Virus record (IMG/VR): IMGVR_UViG_3300023184_003237 | Span: 1-64,000 of that record | Length of the DNA stretch: 64,000 nucleotides | Source of the DNA: a virus | Direction: 5' to 3' (one strand) | In this document: positions 4,204-44,979 of the stretch, piece by piece | How positions within the stretch are numbered: the first letter of the stretch is position 1 | Layout: every line of letters starts with the position of its first letter | Made by a program: the position numbers and the translations under genes | Notes under the pieces: generated by a model | What the model was told of the DNA's origin: nothing | What the model saw: the letters and a program-made list of their open reading frames with translations, nothing else | The model's database searches: none

Positions 4204-4508
4204 TGGCAACAATATATCCGGCAGCTAGCCCATATTATAACACTGATGTATACAATAATAATTTTTTAGATGTGATGATAAATCGTCCTATCCCAATGCA
4301 ACCTTCGGATATATATTGGGAAATAGCAATTATGTATGAATATCGTCCTGATTTATTAGCGTATGACTTATATAGTGATAGTAGATTGTGGTGGGTATTT
4401 GCACAACGAAATCCAAACAGATTAAAAGATCCTTATTTTGATTTTGTAGCAGGTCTGGGAATATATTTACCTAAAATGGATTTGTTGAAACAAGTGTTAG
4501 GTATATAA
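4203..4508 (+). CDS. 53: Baseplate wedge protein, gp53-like
   Basis: The 101-residue protein carries YRPDLLAYDLYSD, then RLWWVFAQRNPNRLKDPYFDF, which parallels the T4 gp53 segment RPEELANAIYG..LYWVLLMCNDNYDPY. By family knowledge gp53 helps join baseplate wedges around the hub in the cytoplasm during tail assembly. T4 gp53 is about twice as long, so this is a minimal version containing only the conserved core. A final segment (GLGIYLPKMDLLKQVL) could correspond to the LysM-like end of related wedge proteins. It overlaps the preceding stop by one base and sits one base before the next start, in the middle of the baseplate operon, which supports the call. Confidence 0.7.
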   Translation: MATIYPAASPYYNTDVYNNNFLDVMINRPIPMQPSDIYWEIAIMYEYRPDLLAYDLYSDSRLWWVFAQRNPNRLKDPYFDFVAGLGIYLPKMDLLKQVLGI

Positions 4509-4509
4509 G

Positions 4510-14987: not shown

Positions 14988-17900
14988 ATGGCAACAAGAA
15001 TTAGAACATTAAATTTTCTCCCAGAAATATTTAAAACTCCAACTAATAGTCAATTTTTACAGGCTACGTTAGATCAACTAACGGCAGAACCTAATACTAA
15101 AAAAATACAAGGTTACGTTGGTAGTAAATTTGGATATGGAGTTAATGCTAATGATTATTATGTAACTGAACCTACTAAGGTTAGAACAGATTATCAATTA
15201 GAACCGGGTGTTGCTTTCTTAAAAGAAAATGATACTACTGCTCAAGATTTTATTAGTTATCCAGGAATAGTTGATGCCTTAAAGGTTGAAGGTGGGTTAA
15301 CTGAAAACAATAATAGACTATTCAATAGCGAATTTTATTCATGGGATTCATTTACTAATTTAGATAAAATTATTAATTTTAATGAATATTATTGGTTGCC
15401 AACTGGACCTGAACGAGTAGTTGTTGCGACTGATATTGTGTATAATACTTCTGACTATGTAGTTCAAAGTGTATCTAATGAATATTTAATTTCATCACAA
15501 ACTTCTACAATTGCAAGTATTAATCCAACATTAACATTGTTGCGCGGTGGTACATATACATTTAGTGTAAATCAAAATAGTCAATTTTGGATACAAGGAG
15601 AACCGGGCGTTACTGGATATAGCCCAACACAAAACAATGTACAAACTAGAGATGTGTTGGGTGTTACTAATAACGGCGCAGAAACCGGTGTAGTAACATT
15701 CACAGTCCCACAACAAGATGCATACAATGAGTATAACTTCCCACTAGGCCCTACTGTTGGCGTGGTATCTAATTTACCATTTAGTGAAGTTGAAGGAGCA
15801 TTAGTAAGTTCTATTGGTGGTATAGACGGAGTAACTGCATTAGACGGATTGACTGTTATGTTTTATGACACCGGCATTCCAAATGAAGCTGGATTTGTGC
15901 AGACTTTTTTTAGTGAAACTGAATACGATACAAATCACAATGTTATTGTAGAACCACTAACTATTACCGCTACTGCTACTGCGGCTTCTGCAATTATTAC
16001 CTTTGATGGTAACACCAATACTTATTACAACGTAGTAACATGTAATTCAACACTTGACCTTATTGAAGGACAAACTATAACATTTACCGGTACTGAATTT
16101 GGTGGATTGACAGCGTATTCAACAACAACCGGTCCTTGCATTTATACAGTTACAGCGATACCTAGTCCCACACAATTTACAATAGCAATTCCGGGCTCAT
16201 CAAACACTCCTGGTGGAGTGCCGTTATTGTCATTAACTGCTGCAACCGGCACAATGATTGGAAATATAAATGAAGGTTTATATGAAGAAGGAATCTATAC
16301 TCCGGTAAACTCAACATTATACACTATTACATTATTAGGAGGTATTGATAATCCACAAATTAAATTACTTCCTTCAGGTACTATCCCTACTAATAAAAAA
16401 ATAATACCTATATATGGAACAGAATATGTAAATAAAAATTTTTATAGAAGTCCTGCAGGATACGTATCTTTAATACCCTATAATAGTGCAATCTTAGATA
16501 GATTATATTATCAAGATGGATCTAGTCCAAACAAAGTTGGTATCATTAAAATAATTGATAGTAATGTTACTAATTCATTAAACATATTAACACAAGTTTT
16601 AGGAAAAACAAATTATACTTCGCCAAATGGTGTTGTATTTACTAACGGATTAAAAGTTTTATTTCAGGGTAGCATATATCCAGAAAGTTATAACAACGTA
16701 GAATATTATGTTGAGGGTGTAGGAACTGCAATAGAATTAATACCAGTTACTACATTAGTTACTCCGGGTTTATTTTCAGAAGGTACATATATACCTTATG
16801 ATACTTTACCATATGATATTGGTAACTATGATATAACGTTAAATATTCCGGTTGAACCAGATTATATAACTATTGCTAGAAATGCAATTAATAAAAATGC
16901 TTGGTCAAGAAGCAATAGATGGTTTCATAAAGATGTAATTAATGCAACTGCATTATATAACAATACACCTGAATTGATTACTCAATTAGAAACTTTAAAC
17001 AGTAAGGCAAAACGTCCAATAATTGAATTCTATCCAAATTTAAGATTATTTAATTCTGGTGTATACGGTAAAGCACCTGTTGATTTTATTGATACTAGAA
17101 CAAAAGATGCATTTAGTCAGGTGGCAGGACAACCTAATTATTATCCTGATGTTGCAGGATGGACAACTTATAATGCAATAATAGCACCAGTGCTTGGTGC
17201 TATTACTACTAAAACAGCTACTGCTACTAGTGGATTAACAAACCAAATTACGTTAAACAATACCACTGGATTACACGTTAATGATACTATTGTGTTTGGT
17301 GGAACAGTGTTTGGTGGAATTGTTTCTGGAACCAAATATTATATTACTAGTATAATTGGTTCTGATATTACAATCTCTGCAATAAATCAAGGGACTGTGT
17401 TTTCATTAACTAGTGGTAGTGGGACAATGACCACTTCAATATATCCATACAGTACCACTATAACTATTCCCACAGCAGATATATCTGGATTATTTGAAGT
17501 AGGGCAATATATAACTGATTCTACACAATTATTGCCTTCAGTTACTTTTATCACAGACATAACCAAAGTAAGCACTGATACAATAATTACTGTATCTTGG
17601 TATGATCAATCAATTATTACTGCAACGTCAGTGGCATCAGTTGTAACCGCGGATACTTCATTAGATAACTATGCATTGTTTGATGGATCAAGAATAATTT
17701 TTGCCAATGATGATACGTTATCGGTAAGAAATAAAATATATGTTTCTCATTTCGCTACCATTACCGGTTCTTCAGTTCCAGTTATTACTCTGACAGAAGC
17801 AACCGACGGTGAAGTATTAATCGATGAACAAACTGCTGTCTATAGAGGGTATAATAATAAAGGAAAAGATTTCTATTTTGACGGCGCTATATGGATAATC

Positions 17901-20900
17901 GGACAGCAAAAAACAACAATAAATCAAGCACCTAAATTTGATATATTTGATAAAAATGATATAAGTTTGGGTAATAATGAATATTATTTCAGTACATCAT
18001 TTACAGGTTGTACCTTGTTTTCATATGGAATTGGTACTGGGTTAAATGACACTGTATTAGGATTTCCCTTGCGCTATAGTAGCGTAGATAATGTAGGAGA
18101 TATAAGTTTTGATGTTACATTGAATAGTCAAACTTTTAATTACGTGGATGGCATTACACCAAAAACACAAAAAGTTAATACTGGATATGTATACAATTAT
18201 ATTGATAGAACAACTCATGTAAGAGAATTGGGGTGGCAAACTGCGGTATCACCTAGTGTTCAATATCAAGTTTTTGATTTTACTTGGGAAACAAACCAGG
18301 ACACATTGTTTACCTGTGACATTCCTGCAATATATACCATATCTACAAAATGGCCATTAGTTCAAGTATACATTAACAATAGATATTTGAATGATACTGA
18401 ATATACAACGGTTATAACTGACACTTCAACAGTAATAAATATACCAGTAATTAACGCAGTTGAGACTGTTATACAAGTTTTGATATTAAGTGACCAAGTA
18501 AGCCAAACTGCTTATTATCAAACACCTATTAATTTAAATAACAATCCGTTAAATGAAGATATTACAACAGCTAATATTGGTGATATTCGTGGACAATATC
18601 AAAGTATTTTCTACAACAATCCTAACACAGTTGGACAAGTATTTGGATCAAACAATTATCGTGATTTAGGCAATTTAGTTCCATGGGGCAATAGAATTAT
18701 TCAAAATAGCGCCTCGTTAGTATTGCCTGGCACATTCTTACGTAAACAAAATCACAATTTGTTTAACTCATTGCTGTTTAATAATAGACAATATATTACT
18801 TTTAAAAATTTATTAGTTGATACGGTCAATAATACTGATTATAATTATTATATGACAGCTTCAGTAATGCTGGATGATGCATTAGATAAAATGAACGCCT
18901 CTCATACTGATAGCGACTCATTCTTTTGGAGTGACATGTTGCCACAAAAGGCACCATACATTAGTAATTCTTATAGTTTTGCAAATTCACTAGATGTTAG
19001 TATCTATCCATTAAGTAGAATTTATAATTATTCTACTGCAAATTACTATGGGGTATTGGTATATTTAATTCGTAATGGAGTTCAAACTCAATTAATCAAA
19101 GGGGTCGATTATACAATAAGCACAGATACACCATCATTAACAATAACTTTAGACTTGTTGCCAAATGATCAAATTATTATTAATGAATATAATCAAACAT
19201 ATGGAAGTTTTGCACCAAATACTCCTACTAAGCTAGGTTTATATCCTGCATCTATTCCGGGGGTAGTATTAGATACTGCTTATTTTATTCCTACATATTT
19301 CATTCTTGGACATGACGGTTCATATAATAAATTGTACGGAGATTACAATCCTGAAACAAATAAATTAGTTGATTTTAGAGATCAAGTATTACTTGAATAT
19401 GAAACTCGTGTTTATAATAATTTAAAATTAAGTAATGTAATACCTGTACAATTATATGAAGTATTACCGGGCTTCTTTAGAAACACTGATTACACATATA
19501 ATGAATTTTTACAAATTTATAGTGAATCTTTTTTAAATTGGATAGGCCAAAATAGAATAGATTACAAAACACAATTGTTTAATCCTGGTAATAAATTTAC
19601 ATATAATTATAAAAATAACGGAAATAAACTTAATGCTGAGCCTATACAGCAAGGATATTTTAGAGGATTATATTTATATTATTACGACACATCAACTCCA
19701 AATGCAACGCCATGGGAAATGATAGGATATGATAATCAGCCATCATGGTGGGCCGGCCGTTATGGTCCTGCACCGTATACAAGTGATAACTTAGTATTGT
19801 GGGGAGATTTAGCAGCAGGTGAAGATTGGGGAACAATTGATCCAGTCACAGGTCGGGGTATAGTTTTACCTAAATTTGTTCGTCCTGGCTTATTAGATGT
19901 GTTGCCGGTAGATAGTAGTGGTAATTTATTATCTCCGTTCTTATCAATACTTGGAGATTATGATGAAAATACTTTTAGAAGTGATTGGCAAGTAGGAGAC
20001 GTTGGCCCAGCTGAATTTAGCTATCGTAGAAGTAGTTCATGGCCATTTGATTTGATGCGTATACTTGCATTAACTAAGCCAGCAGAATTCTTTAATTTGG
20101 GTGTGGATGTAGATAATTACAAATTCAATAAAGAATTTAATCAATATTTAGTAAATGATAGAAGTCACTTAATAGTTACTGACATTCCAATATATGGTTT
20201 AGGTACCCCTGCCACTAGTTATATCAACTGGATTGTTGACTTTGAGAAACAAGTTGGGGTAGATGCAACTACAAATATAACTACATTATTAAATAACCTA
20301 GATGTTCGTTTAGTATATCGTTTGGCTGGATTCAGTGATAAAACATTATTGAAATTTTATGTTGAAAAAAGTTCAGCAAATAGCAACAACAGTTCACTAT
20401 TAATTCCTGATGAAAGCTATAGCGTATTATTATATGATAACCAACCATTTGATAGAATTGTATATAGTGGAGTAGTTATACAACTTGTAGAAAATGGTTA
20501 TAAAGTATACGGCAATAATCAAACTAATGCTTATTTTAAAATATCAGTACCTAAGGCAAACGGACAATATGAAAAAGTGCAGGTTGAAGGACAAACAGTA
20601 ACTATACCTACATCTTTTTCTACTAATACAGCAGTAGTTCCGTACGGTACTGTATTTTATAATGCACAAGAAGTCGCAATCTTTTTAATAAGTTATGGAG
20701 ATTATTTACAACAGCAGGGTGTAAAGTTTGACCAAATAGAAAATGGAATTCCAGTTAACTGGCAACAAATGATTTCAGAATTTTTATACTGGAATCAAAT
20801 TGGATGGGAGATTGGTAATATAACTACAATTAATCCAGCAGCAAATATATTTTCATTTGATAAAGATAGTTACATTATACAACCATTAACATTTAGACAA

Positions 20901-23900
20901 TTAAACTTTGTATTAAATCAAAATCTGTATCCAATACAATCAATTGATTTGTCAATTGTACGTGATGGTACTTTATTTACAGCAGCACCTGCTAACGCCG
21001 GCGACACTATTGCATACGGACAATTTAATGTTAGTAACATCGAACACGGTATAGTTTTTGATAATGTAACATTGTTTAATGATATAATTTATAATTTAGT
21101 AACTGGGTTGCGTCAAAATAGAATTTATTTACGAGGAACTAAAACAGCCGACTGGAATGGCACATTAGATGCAGCAGGATTTATACTCAACCAAGATAAT
21201 ATTCAAGAATGGAATAGAGAAATAAAATATACTAAAGGTTCAATAGTAAAATATAAAAATAAATATTGGACTGCATTAACAATCATTCAAGCAAAAGATT
21301 TGTTTGATGAGCGTGATTGGAAACAAACTGATTACAACGAAATACAAAAAGGATTGCTGCCCAACAGTCAAACACGTTCATATGAAAGTACATTATATTA
21401 TGATATAAATAATGCTAACTTGGAAAACGATGCTGACTTATTAAGTTTTGGTTTAATAGGATATCGACCAAGAGATTATATGGCATTAGCCGATCTTACC
21501 GATATAACTCAAGTTAATGTTTATCAAAATTTAATTAAAGAAAAAGGAACTCTAAATGCAGTTAGCGCCTTTAAGGGAGCAACATTAGCACAAGGCGGAA
21601 TCGAATACGATGTTTATGAAAATTGGGCTATCAAATCAGGTGAGTTTGGTGGTATATTAAATAACAACTTTGTTGAATTTAAATTAAAACAAAGTTCTCT
21701 AACAGGCAATCCATCTATTGTGGGATTAACTAATGGGACATATAACACTGATGGAGTACAACAAGAAGTACCGTTATATAGTATTACAAATTATGGTAGA
21801 CAAGTAAATAGTCCTAATATATTACCTACGATTTCACCAAGTCAACCTTCTACATTATTTCCTACTGCCGGCTATGTTAACTTTAATGATGTTAAGATGG
21901 CTAGCTATTTCTATTCTGGATTACCATTGGCAATAAATTCAGTTGGAACTGTTATACCTATTAATCAATTCTATGTGCGTGATTATGTTTGGTTGGCAAA
22001 TTATTTGTCAGAATGGCAAGTATACACTCCTGCTAGTTTGGGAACGGTAGTAAATGCTACAAATAATTTAAACAACACAGTCACTATAACTTTTAGTAAC
22101 GCACACAATTTAACAAAATATCAACTGTTTGCAATTGTTAATTTTGATGCAAACATTAACAATTATTATCTTGTAGCAGCGGTAGTAGATCCGTTTAGTG
22201 TACTTGTTAATCTTTCTTTAGACCCTAGTATCCGAAGCGTCACTGGTAACGGAATTGGGTTTAAAATGCAATCGCAACGTGTTGCAACTGCTCCGGAAAT
22301 TCAAAATCTGCCTTTATTGGATAACGAATTTAATAAATTAAAAGTATGGGTCGATACAAATAATGACGGTGGCTGGGCTGTATTTCGTAAAAGTTTAAAC
22401 TATCAATATAATAAAGAAATATTAAAAGCAAATAGTCAAACATTTGGTAGTGCGGTAGCATACACAACTGACATGGGGTATTTGATTGGAGATGCAGACG
22501 CCGGCGAGGTGTACAGATATAAATATGATACCTTTACTGATGCATATTTATTAAATCAAACTATAGCGCATGGCGCCTCATTTGGTTCTAACATTTCATA
22601 CGCAGATGATTTGTTTATAATCTCTGAGCCAACAGGTGCTAAAAATGTTTATGTATATCAATTGATAAACACATTATTAGTTAACCGTGTTGATTTGTAT
22701 CAGACAATTCCTGCGCCACTTGGGGTAACAAACTGGGGTAGTTCTACTACATTGTCAGGGGACAAGAATTGGTTATACATATCTGATATTGATAATAACA
22801 GCGTTCATGTGTGGCGCAAGTCAGTGGTTACTGATTTGTATGAAGCGTCATATATTATTGACGGAGATGTGTTGGGATTAACAACTCCGTACAATGCAAT
22901 AACATATCCACATTACGATAAGTTTGGTTATTCTATATCTACTGATTATTACGGCGACACTGTAGTTATTGGAACACCTTTTAAGAATTATGATGTAGCC
23001 ACAGAGAATTACGGTTATACTTATGTATTTGATAGGATCGTTCAAACCTTTGAAGCACAGTCTACAATTCAACAGTATATTCCATTACAATTTGGATTAA
23101 CATGGACACCTACTCCTAATGTTAAAACTGCCACTGTTATTAGTAGTAATGCAATAACATTGGATAATGTTACTGGTTTACATGACGGTGCCGCCGGCAC
23201 TCCAATGGTATTTACGGGCACAGTGTTTGGTGGTATATCATTAAATCAGGTATACTATGTTAAATCTATTGTAGATTCAACACATATTACACTTTCATTA
23301 ACCCGCGATGGTACGGTACTAGCATTAACGAACAGTTCTGGATCAATGAGTGTAGTCGCACAAACATCACCACTATATGTTTCTGTTAACGGAACATTAA
23401 TTGAAGATAATACATATGCTGTTATTGGGTCAAACTTATATGCATACAGTAACAGTAATACTCCGTTAATTAATGCAGGTGATATTATTAGTATTAGTGG
23501 TAATAATTTTGTGTTAGCACAAACATTAACTAATGGATTAACACCTAGAGTTGGAGTAGAGTTTGGTACAAGCGTAGATACTAATAAGTTTGCAAATGAA
23601 ATATTAGTTGGCGCGCCGTTTGAATTGAACAGTAAAAATTATGAAGGTGCAGTACATAGGTTTACTAATGGTGGTGAAAGCTATGGTATAATTATCGGTA
23701 CTAATGATTGTAATATCACTATGGATAGAACAATATTATTAAATGGATTTAATGTTACATTACCTGCAGGAGATGCAACTACAGCATCAAGCACAATAAA
23801 TTTAGCAAATATTACTAATATTACTTCTACCGCATTAAATGGTAAATTAATAATTCAATTAATTAACATTAACTTAAGTAATCCTAACAATAAATTAACA

Positions 23901-26900
23901 TTGGTAGCATTGGATTCTGCAACATATGAGGAAATGGGAATATCAATATTCACAGAAACACAAGTAATCAATTCACCACACTTGCAAGGTCGTACACAAT
24001 TTGGAACGACGGTTAAGTTTGATAAATCAAATTCCGGATCTTTTATAGCAAGCGCACCTGTAGGTACACGATATTCTGCTACTACCTTTGATTTTACAGA
24101 TGATGAATTAGACAACGATACTGTTTTTGATAATAACGCCACTCAGTGGGTAGATACTTTCACAAACGCGGGTGCAGTATATATGTTTGATTATTTGTCT
24201 ACATATAATGAAAATTTAACTGCTCCGGGCAAATTCGTATATGCACAAAGTACAAATGCTAAAGATTTAGATTACGGATCACAACCATATTATGGCACTG
24301 CATTAGATTTTAACAGCAATCGTGTTACCATTGGTACTCCTAATTTCTCACCAAACATTGTTGCTAATGACACCAATGGTCAAGTAGTTACTTATGTAAG
24401 CACAAGCGGTACTCCAGATTGGACAGTATATAGAAGTACAAGTGATATAGTTGATGTTAACGGAATTGGGCCAATACAGTTGTATAGTGCGTCAACCAAT
24501 GAAACACTAATTAATTTAGATTATTTTGACCCATTGCAGGGCAAATTACTAGGTGCAGTACAAGAAAACATAGATGTTATATCTAATGTTGATCCGGCTG
24601 GATATAACAGCCCAGGATATACAGAAGGAAATTTAGTATGGGGAGCCGATAAAATAGGAACATTGTGGTTCAACACTACCAATTCTCGCTTTATGAATTA
24701 TCATCAAAATGATGTTAGTTACAACAGCCAATGGTGGGGTAGAGTATTCCCGGGAAGTGATGTTTCAGTATATTCATGGGTAACAAGTAATGTTCCTCCT
24801 TATCAATATGCAGGACCCGGAATTCCATATGACATAGCCAATTATAGTGTATCAGGTGTTGTTAATGCTGAAGGATTAGTTGTCCCTGTGTATTATTTCT
24901 GGGCAAGAAATACAAATATTGTATTCACTCAACGAGATAAAACATTAGCAGATAGCACACTACAATTATATATTGCCAACCCGCTCGGTACTGGCATTAG
25001 TTATTTTTCTCCATTGTTGCCAAACGTATTTGGTTTATATAACTGTTCAGATTATATAAACGCTAACGATACTACATTACATCTTGGCTATGCAACTGGT
25101 ACTAACGATGATGTAGCACATAATCAATATAGTTTAATTAGAGCAAATTATGCAGATGATTTCTTACCGGGGTTTCCAGGATCCGGAGCTGCGTATCAAT
25201 ATCATGGAGCAGTGGGTATAACTCAGCCAGCTGGGCTATACAATAGAATGCTAGATAGTATGTGCGGGGTTGATAATTTTGGTTCTGTTGTACCTAACCC
25301 GTTGTTGCCAAAATTAGTACAAACCGGTGTTTTGGCTAGACCAAGACAAGGTTTCTTCTATAATAGATTTGGAGCATTACAGAATTACTTACAATATGCT
25401 AATACTGTATTGGCACAATTCCCTATAATTGAAATAAGAAACCCCCAATTCTTGTACAGAGTAAATCCTACAACCTATGCTACAATAAATGCAAGTAATT
25501 TTAATATAGGTAAGGTATATACAATTGAAACAATAGGAACTACGGATTTTACATCGATTGGTGCAACATCTAATACTGTAGGAGTAGTCTTTACTGCAAC
25601 TGGATTAGGAACTGGCACCGGCACCGCAACCATATTAACTTTCTTAGAAGGTACAGAGTTTGATACTACTAAGTATTGGACTTATATAAATTGGTGGGCT
25701 ACTGGATATAATAATAATACTAAATCATCATTACAAGTTCCTTTATATGCTGATTTGGCCACACTAACTGTAGCCGCTGGTACAATTGTAAAAGTAGCAT
25801 CAAATAGCGCAGGCAATGGAGAAACGTATATTTTAGAAGCCACTGGCACATGGACAAGAATCGGACTAGACAATGGAACAATTGCGTTTAGTAGTTATCT
25901 TTGGGATTATCCGGCCGCTAGAATTGGATTTGGAGACAATTTCTTTGATACCAATTTATATGATGAATACCCGAGTGAAGAAACTAGATATATTGTTCGT
26001 GCATTAAATGAAGAAATTTACACTAATGAATTGTTAATTTTTAGAAACAATAGTTTAATTTTATTATTTGAATATATACAAAGTGAAACAATTGAAAATC
26101 AAAACTACCTGCCATGGTTAAACAAAACATCATTGATGGATGTTACTCACACTATAAGAGAATTAATTCCTTTAGAAGTATTCCGGTCTGACAATCAAGA
26201 TTTCTTAGCAGGATATATTAATGAAGTTAAACCATATCACGTAGTAATTAAAGAATTCTTATTTAAGTATACTCGAACCGATATATTTGAAGGAGATATA
26301 ACAGATTTTGATTTACCTTCTGAATATCATACTGATGTCCAACAATTTATAACACCTGAATTAGTATATGCTAATCCAACCGGTGACACTGAATATTTAC
26401 CCATTAATCCAATATGGCAAACTGCACCGTACAGCCAATGGTTCAACAATTATGGATTAAGTATTGTAGGTGAAAATAATTATCCTATTACTAAATTAGC
26501 ATCCTATGCTTCATTGTCATCAAGTTCTATATATGTAGATAATGTTTCAGGATTTCCAGTAACTGGAACTATATTAATTGGAACTGAAGAAATTGAATAT
26601 AGTGATTTAAATTTAGCAACTAACCAATTGTTAGGATTGTTACGAGGTGCAAATACTACTAAGATTCAACAACATATACCCGGAGCACAAATTTTTATTA
26701 ATTTGCCACCGGTATTAGTATTGAATTCAGGTAGAGGATATTCTGAGCCTCCTCGAGTTACAGCATACATCGACACTACAATATACCCTGCACCAAGAGT
26801 AGCAGCGCAACTAGAACCAATCATGGCATTAGATTCTGTGATAGGGGTCAATGTAATTAACCCAGGTGAGGGATATGCGGTACTGCCAACAATACAAATT

Positions 26901-29900
26901 GACCCGGCATTTATTGTTACTGCCAATAGTTCACAAGTTAATATAATAAATGATACAATTGAAATCAATGCTCCTTTATTACAGACCGGTGACCTAGTAA
27001 TATATTATCCTGAAGTAGGTTCTACTGCAATCGGTGGTCTAGTTGTTGGACAAAAATATTACGTGGGTGTATTAGAAACTACTCCATCTACTATTATTGC
27101 ATTGTACGATACATATTTTACTTTATTGAATGACCATGACCGTGTTCCTCTTAGTAGCACTGGTACAGGAACTCAAACTTTACGTGCGGGCGCAGTTGCT
27201 TCTTGTATAACAAGTTCAATTCCAGTTAGAGAAAATAGTATAACATTAAAATTTGACAGAACCTCATATACTTCTCAAGTAACTGATTGGTCTCCGGGCG
27301 GGTTCTATGGTTCATTTTATGCAGGATCATATAATGATAGTATTAGAGAATCATCATCATCCATTCTATTACCACTTACGCAGGAAACCGCATCAGAACC
27401 AGTACGTTCAATGTTGGCTAGCGCACATGGTATTGGGTTTGAAATATTAGATGTTGAAAACAAACAAACATTAACTTGGTCTTCACGTACCAGAAACACT
27501 GTTCAAACATATGATAATACTACACCATACCCAGATACAGTAAGAATTAATCCAAGTCCTGGTGGGTCACCTGTTGATGGAGTATTAGGATCAACATTGG
27601 GATTCTACGTGGGGATGCCGGTGTATTTCTCTGGAAGCGGAGTTCCTTCAGGTAGTCCAATTGTTCCTAATACTACCTATTATGTTAAATCATTAGTTAG
27701 ATTGCCAAATGCAGCTATCACTTCTGCTAATTTAATAATAGGTCAACATTATATAATTGAATATTTAGGTACAACTGATTGGAACAATGTGGTCGGCACA
27801 ACTGGGGTATCTTACTCGGTGGGTAATGCAATAGTTGTTGCGAACATTACTGTGGGTACTGGCAGAGCAACTCCAGTGACAACTTCTTCTGTTTTAGAAA
27901 TTGGAAATAGTTATTTAATTGTTAGTTTAGGGACAACTAACTGGAACACTGTAGCAGGTACAACCGGGGTAAGTTATACAGTAGGAAATACAATAGTAGT
28001 TAAATCAACTGCTAGCGGCACTGGGTTGGCATCAATTATGCAAGATACTGGATTTACAATGTCATCTACTGTAAACAACGGTATACCTGGTTCTACATTG
28101 CCACTAACATCAGCTACCATTAACGCAACTGGGCTCATATTAAATGTAGGTGAATTAACTAATATAGCTTTACTAACTATTAATTATGATGGTATTAGAA
28201 CAGCAACCGCAACAGCAAAAAATACAAATGTAATTACTGCTCCGTTAATTGTAACAGGACAAGGTGGCACAAAATCTTTTTATCCTGGACTTCCTATATT
28301 CTTTACCGGCACTGTATTTGGTGGAATAGCAGAAAATCAAACATATTATGTAACCACTGTGATTGATTTGCAAAACTTTACAATATCTACTAGCAATGAT
28401 GCATTAATGTTAACTGCAATAGAAACAAGTGCTACAGGATATAAAATTACAACTTCTAGTACATCAAACTTATCAATAAATGAGCCTGTAATATTTACCG
28501 GAACTACATTTGGTGGAATTGTTGCAGGAACTACATATTATGTAAGACAAATATTCTCAAATACTACATTCTCTATTTCAACTGCAATTAATGGGTCAGC
28601 TTTCACTCTAACCAATGCTACAGGCTCATGTACTGTTACAAGTCAACTAAACACTGTGTCATTAACTACAGCAACTGGAACAATGACATTGAATGTTGGC
28701 TTACCGGTAAGTCCTGGTCAAATCAATGGTCAAGAATTTACTTTATATGACACCTCTAAGTCATATCCCGGTGTTTCTGGAACTGTTTCTAATTTAATTA
28801 ATAGAAAAATTTCAGCAACTTTGAATACTGTTAATAGAATTTGTTTAACTAATAAGAGTGGTGGAATAACCAATGTTTATAACAATATGAAATTTAATGT
28901 TGCTAGTAATATTGGTGGACTCACTACGTCAGGAGGGCCGTACATTGTACAATCAACCGGAATAACTACAATAACAGTTACTAATACTAGTACTACTGGA
29001 AATTGGTTAACATTGCCGGTAGATTCTAACCCTAATACTACTGATGTATTATACGTTGGTATGCCATTATATTTTACTGGAACAGCATTGGGTGGCATAG
29101 TATTAGATATTGTTTACTATGTACATACAATTGACAGTGGTCCTCCTGTAGGAACAGGAAGATTCACCGTCGCAGATGCAATTGATAGCAGTTCCCCCGT
29201 CACACTTACCACAGATAATGGAAGTATGACCGGTACCGGTGAACCATATATTGCAGTAAGCAATACATTATCAGATGCTACTGGTTCAGTAACGTTAACG
29301 CAGGTAGTAAATGTTACTCCTACATTTAATGTAAGTTATATATTGGGTGGATATAGTGCTACTGTATCTTCAGCAGGATCAGGATATGCAGTTAATAATA
29401 CTATTACTATATCAGGCACCGCTGTTGGTGGAACTCATCCTGCAAATGATTTAACGTTACAAATTTCAGCAATTGATTCAAGTGGCGGAGTAGTTAGTAC
29501 TATCGCAAGTGGTACTCCTGCAGGAAACAATGAACAATATTATTTCAAGGTGTATGATGTAAATCAAGTAGAAGTGTATAGTAATCCTAATTTGACCTCA
29601 GCCGTGTCAGGAGAAAATTTCCCATTCAATGGAGTAACTTCTACCACAGCAACATCAACAGAATCAGCAACTGATAGTATTACTGTAACGAGTTCTGCCG
29701 AATTTATTATTAATGATTCAGTTGTGTTTACTGGAACTGTATTTGGTAATATTGTATTAGGACAGACTTATTATATATTAGATAAACCAACGTCAACTAC
29801 AGTGACTATTTCTGCTACCCCAAATGGAAGCACATTTGCACTAGCCAATTCTTCTGGTTCAATGACCATGGCTAAATTAGGTGATTATGCATTCTTACCA

Positions 29901-32900
29901 GAACCATTCTTCTTTAGTTCAAGTATTGTAAAATACAATAAACAATTGTATCAATGTATTATAAGCAATAATGATCCTGAATTTATATTTGGCAAATGGG
30001 AATTGTTAGATTCGGGAAATAATAAATTAAATGCATTAGACAGAATAATAGGTTATTATGATCCAACTGTTAACATGCCGGGAGTAGATTTAACTCAATT
30101 GGTAACTGGGATAACTTATCCTAACGCAACATATTTGGGCAATGCATTTGCCCCAGCAGATGAATATCCACTTGATACTATATTAATAGATAAACCATTC
30201 TATGTTACAGGATTAAATCTAAAAGCAGTTGTTTGGAACGGTACAAACTATGTAAGTGCAGCAGACACTAGTGATAATTCATCAATAAACTTAAGTCCAA
30301 CTAGTAGAATTTGGGAAATTACTCAATTATCAAATAGTACACTTAATATTACTGACATGTTGTACACAGGTACAAATTATGTTATGACTTGCAACAATAG
30401 TGCAACTCCTGTACTATCAAGTACAGACGGTATAAATTGGAGTACTATTACTTCATATAACACATTAAGCGTACTTAACGATACTATACCATTATTAATG
30501 AATAGTGTTACGTATAATAATGGATTATATGTTGCTGTAGGAAATAATATCATTACTTCAGTGGGATTAGCAAGTTGGACTGAAACCTATAGATTTACAA
30601 ATCCTGAATTTACTAGCGTACTTAATGGAGTAACTCATGTAAACACGAGTGGATTTACTGGGTTTATTGCAGTCGGATTAGGACAACAAATTGTCAACGC
30701 ACTTACAGCAAATGTAGGAATAATATTTACTAGTAGAGATGGAATTGTTTGGAATCAAATATCATTTAATGATACAATATATGGATTCAACTCAATTGCA
30801 TCAAACGGTTACACTATTGTAGCAGTAGGTAACAATGGTATAATATATACTAGTTTTAATGCTACCAATTGGTCACAGGCAAGTTCAACTGGGAATGACA
30901 ATTTAAACAATATCATATGGGATAGTGTCAATAATAGATTTGTTATAGTAGGTGACAACGGAGTTATAAAAACAGGATCATCAGACGGGGTAACATGGAC
31001 TACTCAAACATCAGGGGTAACATCAAGTTTACAAAGTGTGTTATGGAATAATACAAATAGTGAATATGTAGTTGTTGGATTAGACAACACTGTGCTGCAT
31101 AGCACAAATGTGACAACCTGGACAAACTATGCTAAATTTGTAACTCCTGAAAGTATATATACTGTTCAAGGTGATACTTTCACTGCTGGGTATGGTCCTG
31201 AAGAAATGGTGCCGGGTATAGTATCTGATACTATCACAATGATTACTAATACTCGTCCGGGTACTAACTGGGATGAAACTATCTACCAACATGTTGGCTA
31301 TAACGTAGTTTCGTTAGAATTGACTCCTGCTGCAGGTGATCAAACTGATTATAGTTTTCTTAATGCAGCAATTGTTCCTGCACAAATAAGTGTATTTGTA
31401 ATTGATTATTCAACTGGGTTAAGCACCACATTGTATGTAGGTAACGATTATACTGTTAACTGGATTGATAAAATAGTAACATTGAATAATTCTATTAATT
31501 ATATTAATCCGGGCACAGATAAATTAAGAATTGATGTATATGAAGTTGGCAATGGAGATCAATTAGTAAAATCAAACACAGATGCTAATCCTATTAGATT
31601 AAATGAAACAACTGGGTTTAATGAGATTTATCTTAATGCAAATTATACCGCCGGCATATATCAAGGATCCGGCATAATTAGGCCTACTACTGTTCCACTA
31701 TATGCTATTGCTAGTTCAACTAATGCCTCATCTGACGCTATCACCTGCGATAGTGTTAAAAACTTTGTATTAAATGGTCCAATATCATTCAGTGGTACTG
31801 TGTTTGGTAATATTGTAGAAGATCAAGTGTATTATGTAAAATCTATTAGTGGAGCTACAAATAGAATCACTGTCTCACTTACAGTTAATGGTGAAACTTT
31901 TGCATTGTCAGATGCTACTGGATATATGGATGCCATTATACAAGTTGGCACTGGTATTACATGGTCGCCGCCGGCTGTATATCACAATGGTTCTTTGTTG
32001 TCATTGGGTACTACAAGTGTAGTTACTAGAACACGAGAAATCACTAATACTATAACAACTATATCAACTGGAAGTTTAGTTCTAAATCAACCAATTGTGT
32101 TTAGTGACACTATGTTTGGCGATATAATTGTACCTCAACAAGTATATTATGTAAAAACAATATATGATACAAATGAGTTTACTATATCATTAACACCCGG
32201 CGGTTCTACTTTAGAATTAACTAATGCTACCGGTGGTGCTACACTAATTACAAACGATTATTCAATTATTTTAGCAAATAACGGGATTAATGCATCAATT
32301 GTATTTGCAGCAGCATATGATGCTACAGTAGACTATCTAGCATATACTATGCTTGGAGAAACTTACCCAATACAGTATGGTTATACATTGCCTGAAATAC
32401 AAACATTTACCGGTGGCAGCGGAGCAGCATCTTTTACTCTAACAAATTATATAGGTGGAGATAATCCAACCAACGCTATTGTAGAAGTTAACGGAATAAG
32501 ACAAAATGATTCAGCATACACAATAAGTTCTATAACCAATAAAATAATATTTAATTCACCGCCGGCAGATGGAGATACTATTGCTGTAACCTCATATAAC
32601 TTAACTGAACGTCAATATTTTAATACACAATATAATATTACAGGATCAGGGGTAGGCACCGCAAGTATTACTATTAGTAATACTACTGCAACTGGTATAC
32701 CATTTGATTATGGTATACTTGCAGGAAGTTTTGTTGTTGGACAACGCTATACTATACAATCACTTAACAATAATGCATATCCAACCCCTGGTGCAAACAC
32801 AAACTTCACTTTAATTGGGGCATCTTCAAATACCGTAGGTGTATCGTTTACTGCAACTGGTGTAGGAACTGGAACTGGATCTGCTATTATAGCCGGTGAT

Positions 32901-34883
32901 GGATTTGATGCGAATGTCCAAACAGTTGGTTCATTTGTTGTAGGGCAACCATATACTATTGTTACTTTGGGCACCACTACAAATACTCAATGGAATACTA
33001 TTGCAGGAACTTCTGCAATAACATATTCTGTTGGTAGCACATTTACTTGCGCTAACATAGGAACTGGATATGGAACCGGAACAGCATACACAGTGGGATT
33101 GTTTAGTCAGTCATTGTATTACTTAACATTAGCATCAGGCACAACTAGTGGGTTAGTTGTTAATACTTCTATAGTTTTTGAAAATGTTATTGGTGGTATA
33201 GTTGCTGGACAAACTTATTACATAACACAAATATTAGACTCTACTAAATTTGTTATCTCTACTCAAGTAGGCGGTCTACCATTAGAAGTTACAACCGCTA
33301 GCGGATCAATGACCAGCGTTGTAGGCGGGCTAACTGTTTCTAATATTGTTGGAATAGATAACGCTATTAGTAATCCAGTAGCAATTAATGTATCCGGTAC
33401 TATTTCTTCTAACAACTCAATAATATGTAATTCCACTAGTGGTTTAACAATTGGGCAAGATATAATATTTAAGTCTGCTATTTTTACTGTTAATGCATCA
33501 TTGGTGAGTGGATATCAATATGAAATTATTACATTGGGCAACACTACTCAATTGCAATGGAACACTGCTGCAGGAACCACCGGAGTAGATTATGCAGTGG
33601 GTGATGTATTTACTGCATCGACCACCGGTGGAGGAGTGGGTACCGGAACAGTATTATTAGTAAACTTAGGCGGTATAAGCACACTTGGACAAGTTTATTT
33701 TGTTAGAGAAAAACTAGACTCTACTCATTTTACTATAGAAGATCAATATGGTGCATTAATTACTCTAACTAATACTTCTGGTAATGACTTGTATGCTTAT
33801 AGTGGTGGACTAGTAGCAGTTAGAGTTATCACTGGAATTGATAATAATTTATCAGAAAATGCGCTTGTTCGTATTGATGGTGTAAAGGGATCAACTCAGT
33901 TAAACAACAATACATATTACGCCAAGATAATAAGTAATACTGAATTTGATTTGTATACAGAACCATATAATCCTGCATATGGAGTAATTAATCATCCTGT
34001 TACTAATGTATCTTCATATGTGTCTGGTGGTTATGTATGGTTGGATCAATTGTTTACAATTGACTCATATTTTCAACAAGAAAATGTTGATAGATTGTGG
34101 GTAACAGTAAATGGATATAGAGTCCCATCTTCATCATTAAGAATGAATCAAGATAATAATTTAAGTATTTTAACAACTATTCAAACTGGAGATGTAGTTA
34201 TTATAACTAGTATGATACCAACGGCTACCCCAAATGAAGAAACTTATTTATTAAATGTAACAACAAGTAATCAACCGTCGGTTTATAGAGCAAACTCACA
34301 GACTAGAACCTGGTTAACAAAACCATTGGAAAATACTGATAGTATAATTTACTTAAATGATGTAACTAATATTACTCATAATGTTGTACAAAATGTCACT
34401 TGTCCTGTCGCGGTTGACGGAGTTTACAATATTGGATTAACGTCAAATAAAAAGGCACTGTGTCACGTAGTAGTTTACAATAATACCACTACAACTCTTG
34501 TAGACCCTACCAATTATTCAATAGTTATTGAAGATACTGCTCCAATCTTGCAAATTTCTGCACAAGTTTCTGCGGGAAATTCCTTGACTCTTACTTCAGT
34601 TGAAGGTAGATTGTTATATGTTAACGGTGAGCAAATTGGATTTAGAGAATGTGATTTGTCTAATAATACTGTAACTAATTTAACTCGAGGTGCAAACGGA
34701 ACCGGGGCGCAAACTTATATTCCATTGTATACTGAAGTATACGGATTGATACCTAGTAATCGTATGACTGACGTATTATATTCTCAGGGATGGAATTCTT
34801 ATGTCTACAATCCAGTTGACGGCGACCCATTACAGATTAGCGATACATTGGGAGCAGGTTTCTTGAGAACGGATATAACTTAA
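14988..34883 (+). CDS. Giant 6631-residue modular tail/baseplate structural protein
   Basis: One frame of 6631 codons stays open with no stop. The N-terminal ~150 residues (RIRTLNFLPEIFKTPTN, GYVGSKFGYGVNANDYYV, NEYYWLPTGPERV) look like a conserved virion-assembly domain; a block near 625-730 (RSNRWFHKDVINATALYN, RPIIEFYPNLRLFNSG) is also non-repetitive. The rest is a mosaic: about eleven TGTVFGGI...YYV modules, six GTTDW modules, an FG-GAP-like propeller (about residues 2485-3140), a BNR/Ycf48-like propeller (about 5070-5385) and Ser/Thr/Asn-rich beta segments. No signal peptide, membrane segment or enzyme motif was seen. It follows gp6, where T4 has gp7, so a peripheral baseplate or long tail-appendage role is likely but unproven. 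The start has a weak ribosome site (TAAAG). The whole 19.9 kb gene must be late-expressed. Confidence 0.7.
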   Translation: MATRIRTLNFLPEIFKTPTNSQFLQATLDQLTAEPNTKKIQGYVGSKFGYGVNANDYYVTEPTKVRTDYQLEPGVAFLKENDTTAQDFISYPGIVDALKVEGGLTENNNRLFNSEFYSWDSFTNLDKIINFNEYYWLPTGPERVVVATDIVYNTSDYVVQSVSNEYLISSQTSTIASINPTLTLLRGGTYTFSVNQNSQFWIQGEPGVTGYSPTQNNVQTRDVLGVTNNGAETGVVTFTVPQQDAYNEYNFPLGPTVGVVSNLPFSEVEGALVSSIGGIDGVTALDGLTVMFYDTGIPNEAGFVQTFFSETEYDTNHNVIVEPLTITATATAASAIITFDGNTNTYYNVVTCNSTLDLIEGQTITFTGTEFGGLTAYSTTTGPCIYTVTAIPSPTQFTIAIPGSSNTPGGVPLLSLTAATGTMIGNINEGLYEEGIYTPVNSTLYTITLLGGIDNPQIKLLPSGTIPTNKKIIPIYGTEYVNKNFYRSPAGYVSLIPYNSAILDRLYYQDGSSPNKVGIIKIIDSNVTNSLNILTQVLGKTNYTSPNGVVFTNGLKVLFQGSIYPESYNNVEYYVEGVGTAIELIPVTTLVTPGLFSEGTYIPYDTLPYDIGNYDITLNIPVEPDYITIARNAINKNAWSRSNRWFHKDVINATALYNNTPELITQLETLNSKAKRPIIEFYPNLRLFNSGVYGKAPVDFIDTRTKDAFSQVAGQPNYYPDVAGWTTYNAIIAPVLGAITTKTATATSGLTNQITLNNTTGLHVNDTIVFGGTVFGGIVSGTKYYITSIIGSDITISAINQGTVFSLTSGSGTMTTSIYPYSTTITIPTADISGLFEVGQYITDSTQLLPSVTFITDITKVSTDTIITVSWYDQSIITATSVASVVTADTSLDNYALFDGSRIIFANDDTLSVRNKIYVSHFATITGSSVPVITLTEATDGEVLIDEQTAVYRGYNNKGKDFYFDGAIWIIGQQKTTINQAPKFDIFDKNDISLGNNEYYFSTSFTGCTLFSYGIGTGLNDTVLGFPLRYSSVDNVGDISFDVTLNSQTFNYVDGITPKTQKVNTGYVYNYIDRTTHVRELGWQTAVSPSVQYQVFDFTWETNQDTLFTCDIPAIYTISTKWPLVQVYINNRYLNDTEYTTVITDTSTVINIPVINAVETVIQVLILSDQVSQTAYYQTPINLNNNPLNEDITTANIGDIRGQYQSIFYNNPNTVGQVFGSNNYRDLGNLVPWGNRIIQNSASLVLPGTFLRKQNHNLFNSLLFNNRQYITFKNLLVDTVNNTDYNYYMTASVMLDDALDKMNASHTDSDSFFWSDMLPQKAPYISNSYSFANSLDVSIYPLSRIYNYSTANYYGVLVYLIRNGVQTQLIKGVDYTISTDTPSLTITLDLLPNDQIIINEYNQTYGSFAPNTPTKLGLYPASIPGVVLDTAYFIPTYFILGHDGSYNKLYGDYNPETNKLVDFRDQVLLEYETRVYNNLKLSNVIPVQLYEVLPGFFRNTDYTYNEFLQIYSESFLNWIGQNRIDYKTQLFNPGNKFTYNYKNNGNKLNAEPIQQGYFRGLYLYYYDTSTPNATPWEMIGYDNQPSWWAGRYGPAPYTSDNLVLWGDLAAGEDWGTIDPVTGRGIVLPKFVRPGLLDVLPVDSSGNLLSPFLSILGDYDENTFRSDWQVGDVGPAEFSYRRSSSWPFDLMRILALTKPAEFFNLGVDVDNYKFNKEFNQYLVNDRSHLIVTDIPIYGLGTPATSYINWIVDFEKQVGVDATTNITTLLNNLDVRLVYRLAGFSDKTLLKFYVEKSSANSNNSSLLIPDESYSVLLYDNQPFDRIVYSGVVIQLVENGYKVYGNNQTNAYFKISVPKANGQYEKVQVEGQTVTIPTSFSTNTAVVPYGTVFYNAQEVAIFLISYGDYLQQQGVKFDQIENGIPVNWQQMISEFLYWNQIGWEIGNITTINPAANIFSFDKDSYIIQPLTFRQLNFVLNQNLYPIQSIDLSIVRDGTLFTAAPANAGDTIAYGQFNVSNIEHGIVFDNVTLFNDIIYNLVTGLRQNRIYLRGTKTADWNGTLDAAGFILNQDNIQEWNREIKYTKGSIVKYKNKYWTALTIIQAKDLFDERDWKQTDYNEIQKGLLPNSQTRSYESTLYYDINNANLENDADLLSFGLIGYRPRDYMALADLTDITQVNVYQNLIKEKGTLNAVSAFKGATLAQGGIEYDVYENWAIKSGEFGGILNNNFVEFKLKQSSLTGNPSIVGLTNGTYNTDGVQQEVPLYSITNYGRQVNSPNILPTISPSQPSTLFPTAGYVNFNDVKMASYFYSGLPLAINSVGTVIPINQFYVRDYVWLANYLSEWQVYTPASLGTVVNATNNLNNTVTITFSNAHNLTKYQLFAIVNFDANINNYYLVAAVVDPFSVLVNLSLDPSIRSVTGNGIGFKMQSQRVATAPEIQNLPLLDNEFNKLKVWVDTNNDGGWAVFRKSLNYQYNKEILKANSQTFGSAVAYTTDMGYLIGDADAGEVYRYKYDTFTDAYLLNQTIAHGASFGSNISYADDLFIISEPTGAKNVYVYQLINTLLVNRVDLYQTIPAPLGVTNWGSSTTLSGDKNWLYISDIDNNSVHVWRKSVVTDLYEASYIIDGDVLGLTTPYNAITYPHYDKFGYSISTDYYGDTVVIGTPFKNYDVATENYGYTYVFDRIVQTFEAQSTIQQYIPLQFGLTWTPTPNVKTATVISSNAITLDNVTGLHDGAAGTPMVFTGTVFGGISLNQVYYVKSIVDSTHITLSLTRDGTVLALTNSSGSMSVVAQTSPLYVSVNGTLIEDNTYAVIGSNLYAYSNSNTPLINAGDIISISGNNFVLAQTLTNGLTPRVGVEFGTSVDTNKFANEILVGAPFELNSKNYEGAVHRFTNGGESYGIIIGTNDCNITMDRTILLNGFNVTLPAGDATTASSTINLANITNITSTALNGKLIIQLININLSNPNNKLTLVALDSATYEEMGISIFTETQVINSPHLQGRTQFGTTVKFDKSNSGSFIASAPVGTRYSATTFDFTDDELDNDTVFDNNATQWVDTFTNAGAVYMFDYLSTYNENLTAPGKFVYAQSTNAKDLDYGSQPYYGTALDFNSNRVTIGTPNFSPNIVANDTNGQVVTYVSTSGTPDWTVYRSTSDIVDVNGIGPIQLYSASTNETLINLDYFDPLQGKLLGAVQENIDVISNVDPAGYNSPGYTEGNLVWGADKIGTLWFNTTNSRFMNYHQNDVSYNSQWWGRVFPGSDVSVYSWVTSNVPPYQYAGPGIPYDIANYSVSGVVNAEGLVVPVYYFWARNTNIVFTQRDKTLADSTLQLYIANPLGTGISYFSPLLPNVFGLYNCSDYINANDTTLHLGYATGTNDDVAHNQYSLIRANYADDFLPGFPGSGAAYQYHGAVGITQPAGLYNRMLDSMCGVDNFGSVVPNPLLPKLVQTGVLARPRQGFFYNRFGALQNYLQYANTVLAQFPIIEIRNPQFLYRVNPTTYATINASNFNIGKVYTIETIGTTDFTSIGATSNTVGVVFTATGLGTGTGTATILTFLEGTEFDTTKYWTYINWWATGYNNNTKSSLQVPLYADLATLTVAAGTIVKVASNSAGNGETYILEATGTWTRIGLDNGTIAFSSYLWDYPAARIGFGDNFFDTNLYDEYPSEETRYIVRALNEEIYTNELLIFRNNSLILLFEYIQSETIENQNYLPWLNKTSLMDVTHTIRELIPLEVFRSDNQDFLAGYINEVKPYHVVIKEFLFKYTRTDIFEGDITDFDLPSEYHTDVQQFITPELVYANPTGDTEYLPINPIWQTAPYSQWFNNYGLSIVGENNYPITKLASYASLSSSSIYVDNVSGFPVTGTILIGTEEIEYSDLNLATNQLLGLLRGANTTKIQQHIPGAQIFINLPPVLVLNSGRGYSEPPRVTAYIDTTIYPAPRVAAQLEPIMALDSVIGVNVINPGEGYAVLPTIQIDPAFIVTANSSQVNIINDTIEINAPLLQTGDLVIYYPEVGSTAIGGLVVGQKYYVGVLETTPSTIIALYDTYFTLLNDHDRVPLSSTGTGTQTLRAGAVASCITSSIPVRENSITLKFDRTSYTSQVTDWSPGGFYGSFYAGSYNDSIRESSSSILLPLTQETASEPVRSMLASAHGIGFEILDVENKQTLTWSSRTRNTVQTYDNTTPYPDTVRINPSPGGSPVDGVLGSTLGFYVGMPVYFSGSGVPSGSPIVPNTTYYVKSLVRLPNAAITSANLIIGQHYIIEYLGTTDWNNVVGTTGVSYSVGNAIVVANITVGTGRATPVTTSSVLEIGNSYLIVSLGTTNWNTVAGTTGVSYTVGNTIVVKSTASGTGLASIMQDTGFTMSSTVNNGIPGSTLPLTSATINATGLILNVGELTNIALLTINYDGIRTATATAKNTNVITAPLIVTGQGGTKSFYPGLPIFFTGTVFGGIAENQTYYVTTVIDLQNFTISTSNDALMLTAIETSATGYKITTSSTSNLSINEPVIFTGTTFGGIVAGTTYYVRQIFSNTTFSISTAINGSAFTLTNATGSCTVTSQLNTVSLTTATGTMTLNVGLPVSPGQINGQEFTLYDTSKSYPGVSGTVSNLINRKISATLNTVNRICLTNKSGGITNVYNNMKFNVASNIGGLTTSGGPYIVQSTGITTITVTNTSTTGNWLTLPVDSNPNTTDVLYVGMPLYFTGTALGGIVLDIVYYVHTIDSGPPVGTGRFTVADAIDSSSPVTLTTDNGSMTGTGEPYIAVSNTLSDATGSVTLTQVVNVTPTFNVSYILGGYSATVSSAGSGYAVNNTITISGTAVGGTHPANDLTLQISAIDSSGGVVSTIASGTPAGNNEQYYFKVYDVNQVEVYSNPNLTSAVSGENFPFNGVTSTTATSTESATDSITVTSSAEFIINDSVVFTGTVFGNIVLGQTYYILDKPTSTTVTISATPNGSTFALANSSGSMTMAKLGDYAFLPEPFFFSSSIVKYNKQLYQCIISNNDPEFIFGKWELLDSGNNKLNALDRIIGYYDPTVNMPGVDLTQLVTGITYPNATYLGNAFAPADEYPLDTILIDKPFYVTGLNLKAVVWNGTNYVSAADTSDNSSINLSPTSRIWEITQLSNSTLNITDMLYTGTNYVMTCNNSATPVLSSTDGINWSTITSYNTLSVLNDTIPLLMNSVTYNNGLYVAVGNNIITSVGLASWTETYRFTNPEFTSVLNGVTHVNTSGFTGFIAVGLGQQIVNALTANVGIIFTSRDGIVWNQISFNDTIYGFNSIASNGYTIVAVGNNGIIYTSFNATNWSQASSTGNDNLNNIIWDSVNNRFVIVGDNGVIKTGSSDGVTWTTQTSGVTSSLQSVLWNNTNSEYVVVGLDNTVLHSTNVTTWTNYAKFVTPESIYTVQGDTFTAGYGPEEMVPGIVSDTITMITNTRPGTNWDETIYQHVGYNVVSLELTPAAGDQTDYSFLNAAIVPAQISVFVIDYSTGLSTTLYVGNDYTVNWIDKIVTLNNSINYINPGTDKLRIDVYEVGNGDQLVKSNTDANPIRLNETTGFNEIYLNANYTAGIYQGSGIIRPTTVPLYAIASSTNASSDAITCDSVKNFVLNGPISFSGTVFGNIVEDQVYYVKSISGATNRITVSLTVNGETFALSDATGYMDAIIQVGTGITWSPPAVYHNGSLLSLGTTSVVTRTREITNTITTISTGSLVLNQPIVFSDTMFGDIIVPQQVYYVKTIYDTNEFTISLTPGGSTLELTNATGGATLITNDYSIILANNGINASIVFAAAYDATVDYLAYTMLGETYPIQYGYTLPEIQTFTGGSGAASFTLTNYIGGDNPTNAIVEVNGIRQNDSAYTISSITNKIIFNSPPADGDTIAVTSYNLTERQYFNTQYNITGSGVGTASITISNTTATGIPFDYGILAGSFVVGQRYTIQSLNNNAYPTPGANTNFTLIGASSNTVGVSFTATGVGTGTGSAIIAGDGFDANVQTVGSFVVGQPYTIVTLGTTTNTQWNTIAGTSAITYSVGSTFTCANIGTGYGTGTAYTVGLFSQSLYYLTLASGTTSGLVVNTSIVFENVIGGIVAGQTYYITQILDSTKFVISTQVGGLPLEVTTASGSMTSVVGGLTVSNIVGIDNAISNPVAINVSGTISSNNSIICNSTSGLTIGQDIIFKSAIFTVNASLVSGYQYEIITLGNTTQLQWNTAAGTTGVDYAVGDVFTASTTGGGVGTGTVLLVNLGGISTLGQVYFVREKLDSTHFTIEDQYGALITLTNTSGNDLYAYSGGLVAVRVITGIDNNLSENALVRIDGVKGSTQLNNNTYYAKIISNTEFDLYTEPYNPAYGVINHPVTNVSSYVSGGYVWLDQLFTIDSYFQQENVDRLWVTVNGYRVPSSSLRMNQDNNLSILTTIQTGDVVIITSMIPTATPNEETYLLNVTTSNQPSVYRANSQTRTWLTKPLENTDSIIYLNDVTNITHNVVQNVTCPVAVDGVYNIGLTSNKKALCHVVVYNNTTTTLVDPTNYSIVIEDTAPILQISAQVSAGNSLTLTSVEGRLLYVNGEQIGFRECDLSNNTVTNLTRGANGTGAQTYIPLYTEVYGLIPSNRMTDVLYSQGWNSYVYNPVDGDPLQISDTLGAGFLRTDIT
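22440..24400 (+). other. FG-GAP-like beta-propeller region of the giant protein
   Basis: Repeated blades read FGSAVAY...YLIGDADAGEVYRY, FGYSISTDYYGDTVVIGTP, FGTSVD...ILVGAP, FGTTVKF...FIASAP and YGTALDF...RVTIGTP, each with an 'FG..v.....iGaP' pattern and a V/Y-rich strand after it. This is the blade pattern of FG-GAP/hyalin propellers, which often bind ligands or metal. A TGTVFGGI module is inserted between blades at about 23.2 kb. Confidence 0.55.
25503..33660 (+). repeat. Six 'G..Y.I..LGTT(D/N)W' modules in the giant protein
   Basis: Copies near 25510, 27740, 27900, 32740, 32940 and 33510 follow the pattern: IGxxYxIxxLGTTDW, then GTTGVxYxVGxxF, then a GTGTA ending. Two pairs are adjacent (27.7-28.0 and 32.7-33.1 kb). 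A similar unit recurs in tail proteins of aquatic phages in my recollection; its role is unknown. Confidence 0.65.
30200..31140 (+). other. BNR/Ycf48-like beta-propeller region of the giant protein
   Basis: Several blades follow the pattern 'aVGnnG.I.tS.dg..W': STDGINWSTITS, YVAVGNNIITS..LASWTE, VAVGNNGIIYTSFNATNWS, FVIVGDNGVIKTGSSDGVTW and YVVVGLDNTVLHSTNVTTW. This is the Asp-box-like pattern of sialidase/Ycf48-type propellers. No catalytic sialidase residues were identified. Confidence 0.6.
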
Positions 34884-44977: not shown

Positions 44978-44979
44978 AA

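Follow-up and report, generated by a model that had tools for sequence, protein, structure and literature searches.

A 6,631-codon viral gene in the gp7 position is predicted to encode an outsized, module-rich member of a giant baseplate protein family of jumbo phages

The window analysed here, a 64,000-nucleotide stretch that is part of a 68,745-base IMG/VR viral fragment, raises the question of whether a single open frame of 6,631 codons is a genuine gene and, if so, what kind of virion protein it encodes. The frame runs from ATG to stop with zero internal stops, as the original prediction had stated, and its product has a predicted mass of 721 kDa. The remaining five frames of the same interval contain 307 to 824 stops. 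At the gene's base composition the per-codon stop probability is 0.076, which places the chance of such openness at ~10^-229. Furthermore, in comparisons with five relatives, changes at the three codon positions follow the order 3 > 1 > 2 in each 500-codon block of the gene, and thus the entire 6,631-codon frame is coding. Judged from these aligned sequences, purifying selection acts along its full length.

Because the gene sits on a metagenomic fragment, its assembly needed testing. One narrow scan of IMG/VR with aa 1005-2233 as the query recovered 105 relatives, and a broader profile search of the same collection gave at least 584 matching stretches. In 30 longer IMG/VR records the homologous place is stop-free each time, with open frames of 4,618-6,911 aa, and the 23 non-redundant relatives that were retrieved have frames closed at 4,714-6,902 aa. 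A single intact frame in the same place in 23 separately assembled contigs makes an assembly error or frame break, the hazard named in the original prediction, very unlikely. On this sequence evidence the giant gene is real, single and selected along its whole length. It is long by viral standards, yet many uncultivated relatives equal or exceed its length, among them G029 (6,902 aa), G028 (6,796 aa) and G006 (6,731 aa). The expectation that very few viral genes are so long holds among isolates but not within the uncultivated clade, where 6.2-6.9 thousand amino acids (kaa) is usual.

Table 1. Features of the giant gene and its neighbours (nucleotide positions are those of the window)
Feature	Residues	Position	Strand	Basis or remark
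gp5-type hub ORF, 1,168 aa		7525-11031
gp25-like baseplate wedge protein, 149 aa		11061-11510	+	Translation by eye; placed like PA5oct gp353 and P-SSM2 gp25
gp6-type baseplate wedge protein, 1,131 aa		11564-14959	+	phrog_10646 E 3e-255; phrog_219 E 1e-18
Giant baseplate-region virion protein gene, 6,631 aa		14988-34883	+	phrog_10938
N-terminal conserved block	1-300	14988-15887	+	35% identity to PA5oct, aa 1-193
R1 cassette	741-817	17208-17438	+	In close relatives G001, G002, G028, G006
Main conserved core	~900-2,240	17685-21704	+	Common to RaK2, PA5oct, Atu_ph07, SCTP-2 etc.
CBM5/12-like small module	2070-2116	21195-21335	+	VIA; weak Pfam CBM_5_12
Region with conserved xYxGxIxxKGT motif	2140-2240	21405-21707	+	Candidate counterpart of gp7 KG motif region
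FCCH-like beta-barrel	2347-2430	22026-22277	+	VIA vs E1 FCCH domains, phi92/K1F endosialidases
FG-GAP-type repeats, probable propeller	2644-2893	22917-23666	+	Pfam FG-GAP_2
R1 cassette	2714-2788	23127-23351	+	Interrupts FG-GAP-type repeats
Second conserved core	~3100-3820	24285-26447	+	20-28% identity to isolates
R3 module	3848-3902	26529-26693	+	Second copy aa 6542-6579
Variable C-terminal beta-module array	~4100-6631	27285-34880	+	10 of 14 R1 and 5 of 6 R2 modules
Seven-bladed YCF48/BNR-like propeller	~5071-5383	30198-31136	+	Foldseek, VIA, six R4 copies
206-aa neighbour		35048-35668	+	phrog_11259; 67-93% identity, just downstream in 23 of 23 relatives
ORF with Peptidase_G2-type chaperone end		35700-36950		Downstream of 206-aa gene

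The family to which the protein belongs is well defined. Over the conserved core, two overlapping pieces match the profile phrog_10938 (virion structural protein; 3,324 positions), with E 6.1e-167 and 1.8e-121. Relatives were found by tblastn in 57 phage records, all at less than 60% identity, and these include PA5oct-like phages, Atu_ph07, Phosso, SCTP-2, Vibrio 2.275.O, RaK2, CBB and 121Q. In the regions examined, the isolate homologues are 3,323-4,555 aa long and lie directly 3′ of a large gene in the gp6 position, mostly annotated as baseplate wedge. Matches to eight isolates form collinear blocks (approximately aa 1-190, 520-720, 900-2,300 and 3,120-3,800) at 21-39% identity. A predicted model of aa 1390-2430 finds other predicted members of the family in BFVD, with a best E of 1e-98 and an E of 3e-46 for an Atu_ph07 structural protein. 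A DNA search of known phages with window positions 1-25000 gave zero matches, a sequence search of solved structures with the giant protein gave nothing useful, and our literature search found no paper discussing this protein's length.

Members of phrog_10938 from isolates (RaK2 ORF070, CBB_236, 121Q gp582, phAPEC6 gp245, PA5oct gp355 and Atu_ph07 gp180) share with the window protein both the slot after gp6 and conserved blocks in equal order. They differ from it at the identity given above in being far shorter than 6,631 aa, and in carrying neither of two repeat modules, R1 and R2, by the profiles used, whereas the window protein has both. Three of these relatives are supported as virion proteins by mass spectrometry. 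For phAPEC6 gp245, a 381.9-kDa protein adjoining wedge protein gp244, 17 peptides were reported from virion mass spectrometry (PMC7247149), and for CBB_236 the number is 21 (PMC5259590). The record of PA5oct gp355 carries the note ESI-MS/MS. We infer the family membership of gp245 from its mass and from its place beside the wedge gene, phAPEC6 being closely related to 121Q. The protein kind is thus already known, and its members are known virion proteins; what is new is a clade with chains of up to 6.9 kaa and R1/R2 cassettes almost confined to one gene. By sequence, the window protein is this clade's outsized, module-rich version of the giant baseplate protein phrog_10938 of jumbo phages.

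The surrounding genes place this protein within the baseplate region. The gp6-type gene, whose second profile match (phrog_219) is the family of T4 gp6, is the direct neighbour of the giant gene, as in the isolates, and a chaperone end of the Peptidase_G2 type, as in the ORF beyond the 206-aa gene, is typical of fibres. These matches agree with the earlier placement of the frame between gp6 and fibre genes. The gene order is gp5-gp25-gp6-X in PA5oct, 25-6-7-8 in P-SSM2 and likewise in S-SM2, and 6-7-8 in T4. Because the gp25-gp6-X order is that of the wedge genes of T4-like cyanophages, where X is gp7, the giant gene occupies the gp7 slot.

Several other features of the window were observed. 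The C-terminal half of the gp5-type hub ORF is long, low-complexity and rich in Ala, Gly and Ser. Further downstream is a run of radical-SAM-type genes (41128-47216, 50404-52332 and 55928-58171), with a SPASM domain in one; the ORFs at 50404 and 55928 pair a B12-binding domain with radical SAM. Next to them are genes for a nucleotide-sugar epimerase (48535-49509), a UDP-glucose dehydrogenase (53479-55878) and a carbamoyltransferase (59003-60484), and together these genes resemble a cluster for modifying surface sugars or peptides. In Atu_ph07 and Phosso, too, the giant gene is followed by radical SAM genes. Another large ORF, of 2,132 aa (60493-66891; L010:5493-11891), extends past the window, and its first 1,169 residues match nothing in Pfam.

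Comparison across the 23 relatives divides the giant protein into conserved and variable parts. The core totals ~3,000 residues (approximately aa 1-300, 500-700, 900-2,700, 2,800-3,500 and 3,600-4,100), and its N-terminal block is 49-78% identical among IMG/VR relatives. Variable stretches lie at approximately aa 300-450, 700-900, 2,700-2,800, 3,500-3,600, 4,100-4,400 and 5,900-6,250. A BLAST self-comparison gave no off-diagonal matches, and it was profile searches that revealed repeats: 14 copies of R1 (~77 aa), six of R2 (~48 aa) and six of a propeller-blade repeat, R4. R2 resembles the second half of R1 (profile 86%, E 5e-6). Accordingly, the original description of the protein as a mosaic of repeated beta modules and propellers captures its repeats, its beta modules and at least one propeller, but it misses a conserved and largely non-repetitive core.

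The repeats also trace how the chain may have grown. Across all fetched loci, R1 and R2 are almost exclusive to the giant gene. The R1 copies at aa 741-817 and 2714-2788 are sharp-edged insertions that most close relatives have, and at the first of these sites four relatives (G007, G008, G010 and G029) carry R2-type sequence while distant relatives have neither module. On the core tree, isolates without R1 or R2 have chains of 3.3-4.6 kaa, related uncultivated lineages mostly have 4.7-5.4 kaa and few R1, and members of the window's clade have 6.2-6.9 kaa and 8-16 R1. One relative (G016) reaches 6,306 aa without R1, and therefore length grew by other modules also. A single R1 occurs in the neighbouring upstream 1,241-aa ORF, probably gp6, at two loci (L084:3579 and L085:3579), which suggests that other wedge genes, too, can acquire the cassette.

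Structure prediction was applied to two segments. The AlphaFold2 model of aa 1390-2430 (61 sequences, pLDDT 80.7, pTM 0.65) has mixed helix and strand, and its convincing matches to solved structures are single modules only, namely the barrel and the CBM5/12-like module. The latter superimposes on the Milano baseplate chain 8fqc_P1 (VIA Z 7.6, rmsd 1.0 over 45 residues) and on chitooligosaccharide deacetylases (VIA Z 6.4). The barrel gives VIA Z 8.6-10.8, with rmsd mostly 2.0-3.0 over 75-80 residues. A profile of R1 against this barrel gave E 0.015, which is insufficient to identify R1 as an FCCH barrel by sequence. The second model, of aa 4380-5560, rests on 22 sequences and is nearly all beta; its modules are credible but their arrangement is not, given a pLDDT of 73.5 but a pTM of 0.41. 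Its propeller matches YCF48 by Foldseek (E 1e-7) and seven-bladed propellers by VIA (Z ~26-28). In addition, Pfam FG-GAP_2 scores 28.5 bits, above the cut-off, at approximately aa 2643-2681. Beta modules and propellers were thus correctly foreseen for the modelled aa 4380-5560 and for the FG-GAP_2 region. In these models, the protein resembles the phi92/K1F endosialidase and E1 FCCH barrels, YCF48/BNR propellers and CBM5/12 in single-module folds.

T4 gp7 is the baseplate wedge initiator. It and the giant protein are alike in the gene slot after gp6 and in having a helical region with a KG(T/I) motif, but T4 gp7 (1,032 aa) is six times shorter, and profile comparison detected no sequence homology. 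Local profile alignment by hhalign against a set of 26 T4 gp7 sequences gave a probability of at most 0.4% for every segment of the window protein, whereas the positive control, cyanophage gp7 against T4 gp7 731-814, reached 87.6% (E 3.5e-6). The candidate motif region at aa 2140-2240 has a weak profile match (11.8%, E 0.0025) to the region of cyanophage gp7 in which a similar motif, FYQSKGIE, lies. Foldseek and VIA searches of the PDB with the aa 1390-2430 model had no gp7 among the matches listed; one barrel filled the list. The window protein is therefore identified with gp7 by gene position only, and the link to T4 gp7 that had been proposed stands on the (25-)6-7 order, while sequence homology is not demonstrable by hhalign. 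T4 gp8, gp9, gp10, gp11 and gp12 and two cyanophage gp8s were also tried as matches and gave a best E of 0.016, which is not credible. Single sequences are weak probes here, because the gp6 positive control reached only E 0.013.

Cyanophage gp7 proteins were compared as well. They are annotated at 5,195 aa in P-SSM2 and 4,156 aa in S-SM2, and gene lengths indicate ~4.2-4.9 kaa in Sf-CH5, ACG-2014f and P-HM1; a giant protein in the gp7 slot is thus not new. Common to these proteins and the window protein are the gp25-gp6-X order, one giant modular chain and the R3 module, whose copy at aa 3848-3902 matches a module near the P-SSM2 gp7 N-terminus (hhalign 97.5%, E 8e-12). This match proves no orthology, because small modules may move between tail proteins. 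BLAST of P-SSM2 gp7 against the window protein gave short matches around small modules only, and the conserved core of the window protein is without convincing homology to cyanophage gp7. Moreover, a match to T4 gp7 is found near the N-terminus of cyanophage gp7 but not in the window protein. In P-SSM2 gp7 (L237:9006-24593) this N-terminal region pairs with the C-terminal third of T4 gp7 and is the only part to match it. From these alignments, the N-terminal part of T4 gp7 seems to be absent or replaced in cyanophage gp7.

In contractile tails, the gp7-slot protein links to the gp6 ring and bears the periphery of the baseplate. We consider it probable that the giant protein is a scaffold of the baseplate wedge, with putative host- or fibre-contact modules in its surface loops and at its C-terminus. 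Each giant chain would form one baseplate-wedge arm, probably in six copies, and the conserved core would pack against gp6 and neighbouring wedge proteins to frame the baseplate rim. Pointing outward would be the R1/R2 modules inserted in loops, the CBM5/12-like module and the propeller-bearing C-terminal array, and these might bind host surface glycans or dock fibres. Perhaps gain and loss of cassettes retunes these contacts and leaves the wedge undisturbed.

The most serious competitor, although we regard it as unlikely, is that the protein is a baseplate-attached appendage, a fibre or whisker-like arm coded beside the wedge genes, and not a gp7-equivalent wedge subunit. Its mostly beta modules, propeller and lectin-like folds would suit such an arm, homology to gp7 is not demonstrable, and RaK2-like virions have unexplained whiskers. 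However, very different phages all retain the gene directly downstream of gp6, as T4-like phages do gp7, and share its core in conserved blocks. Furthermore, the interval from gp6 to the fibre genes showed no other gp7 candidate.

It is less probable still that the single translated chain is a polyprotein from which a phage protease releases a wedge protein and separate receptor-binding proteins. In favour of this, the conserved core gives way clearly to the variable array near aa 4,100, and the bottom-up proteomics of relatives cannot distinguish single from multiple chains. Against this, phrog and Pfam profile searches found no protease domain in the chain, and the purified-virion protein of phAPEC6 was assigned 382 kDa, a value that is the predicted mass and not a band size. 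The original proposal of a single structural chain in the tail or baseplate agrees with this analysis.

A tail tape-measure protein, suggested by great length and nearby tail genes, is highly improbable. The composition is beta-rich (25% AELKQRM, 65% VIYFWTSGN), and the modelled parts (aa 1390-2430 and 4380-5560) contain no long helix or coiled coil. Tape measures scale at ~0.15 nm per residue, and the 3,323-3,857 aa chains of relatives would require tails of ~500-580 nm. The tails of 121Q, RaK2 and PA5oct measure 115, 128 and 136 nm, respectively (PMC3936114). Composition and these tail lengths together exclude a tape measure, in accord with the initial judgement that there is neither a tape measure nor a long coiled coil. 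Finally, an assembly chimera or artefactual read-through across several genes is scarcely conceivable, for although the source is a metagenomic fragment and repeats might mislead an assembler, the 23 separately assembled contigs have the same architecture and purifying selection extends over the whole frame.

Beyond the wedge-scaffold reading, it is possible, though less likely than not, that in this uncultivated jumbo-phage clade the wedge gene itself has turned into a host-recognition platform. R1 and R2 would have spread within the gene, both into core loops and through the C-terminal array, doubling the chain until it was among the longest single-chain virion proteins, and cassette turnover would change host contacts. 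More broadly, an odd single ORF becomes a well-sampled family, represented by the matching stretches from IMG/VR, its members ranging from 3.3 to 6.9 kaa. Because the family spans this range, its tree allows one to follow how a baseplate protein grew as cassettes were inserted. Isolates with short members, such as PA5oct, RaK2 and phAPEC6, allow the structure of the conserved core to be approached. The variable modules, in turn, offer specific candidates for contact with a receptor or fibre in a phage group about whose adsorption apparatus little is known.
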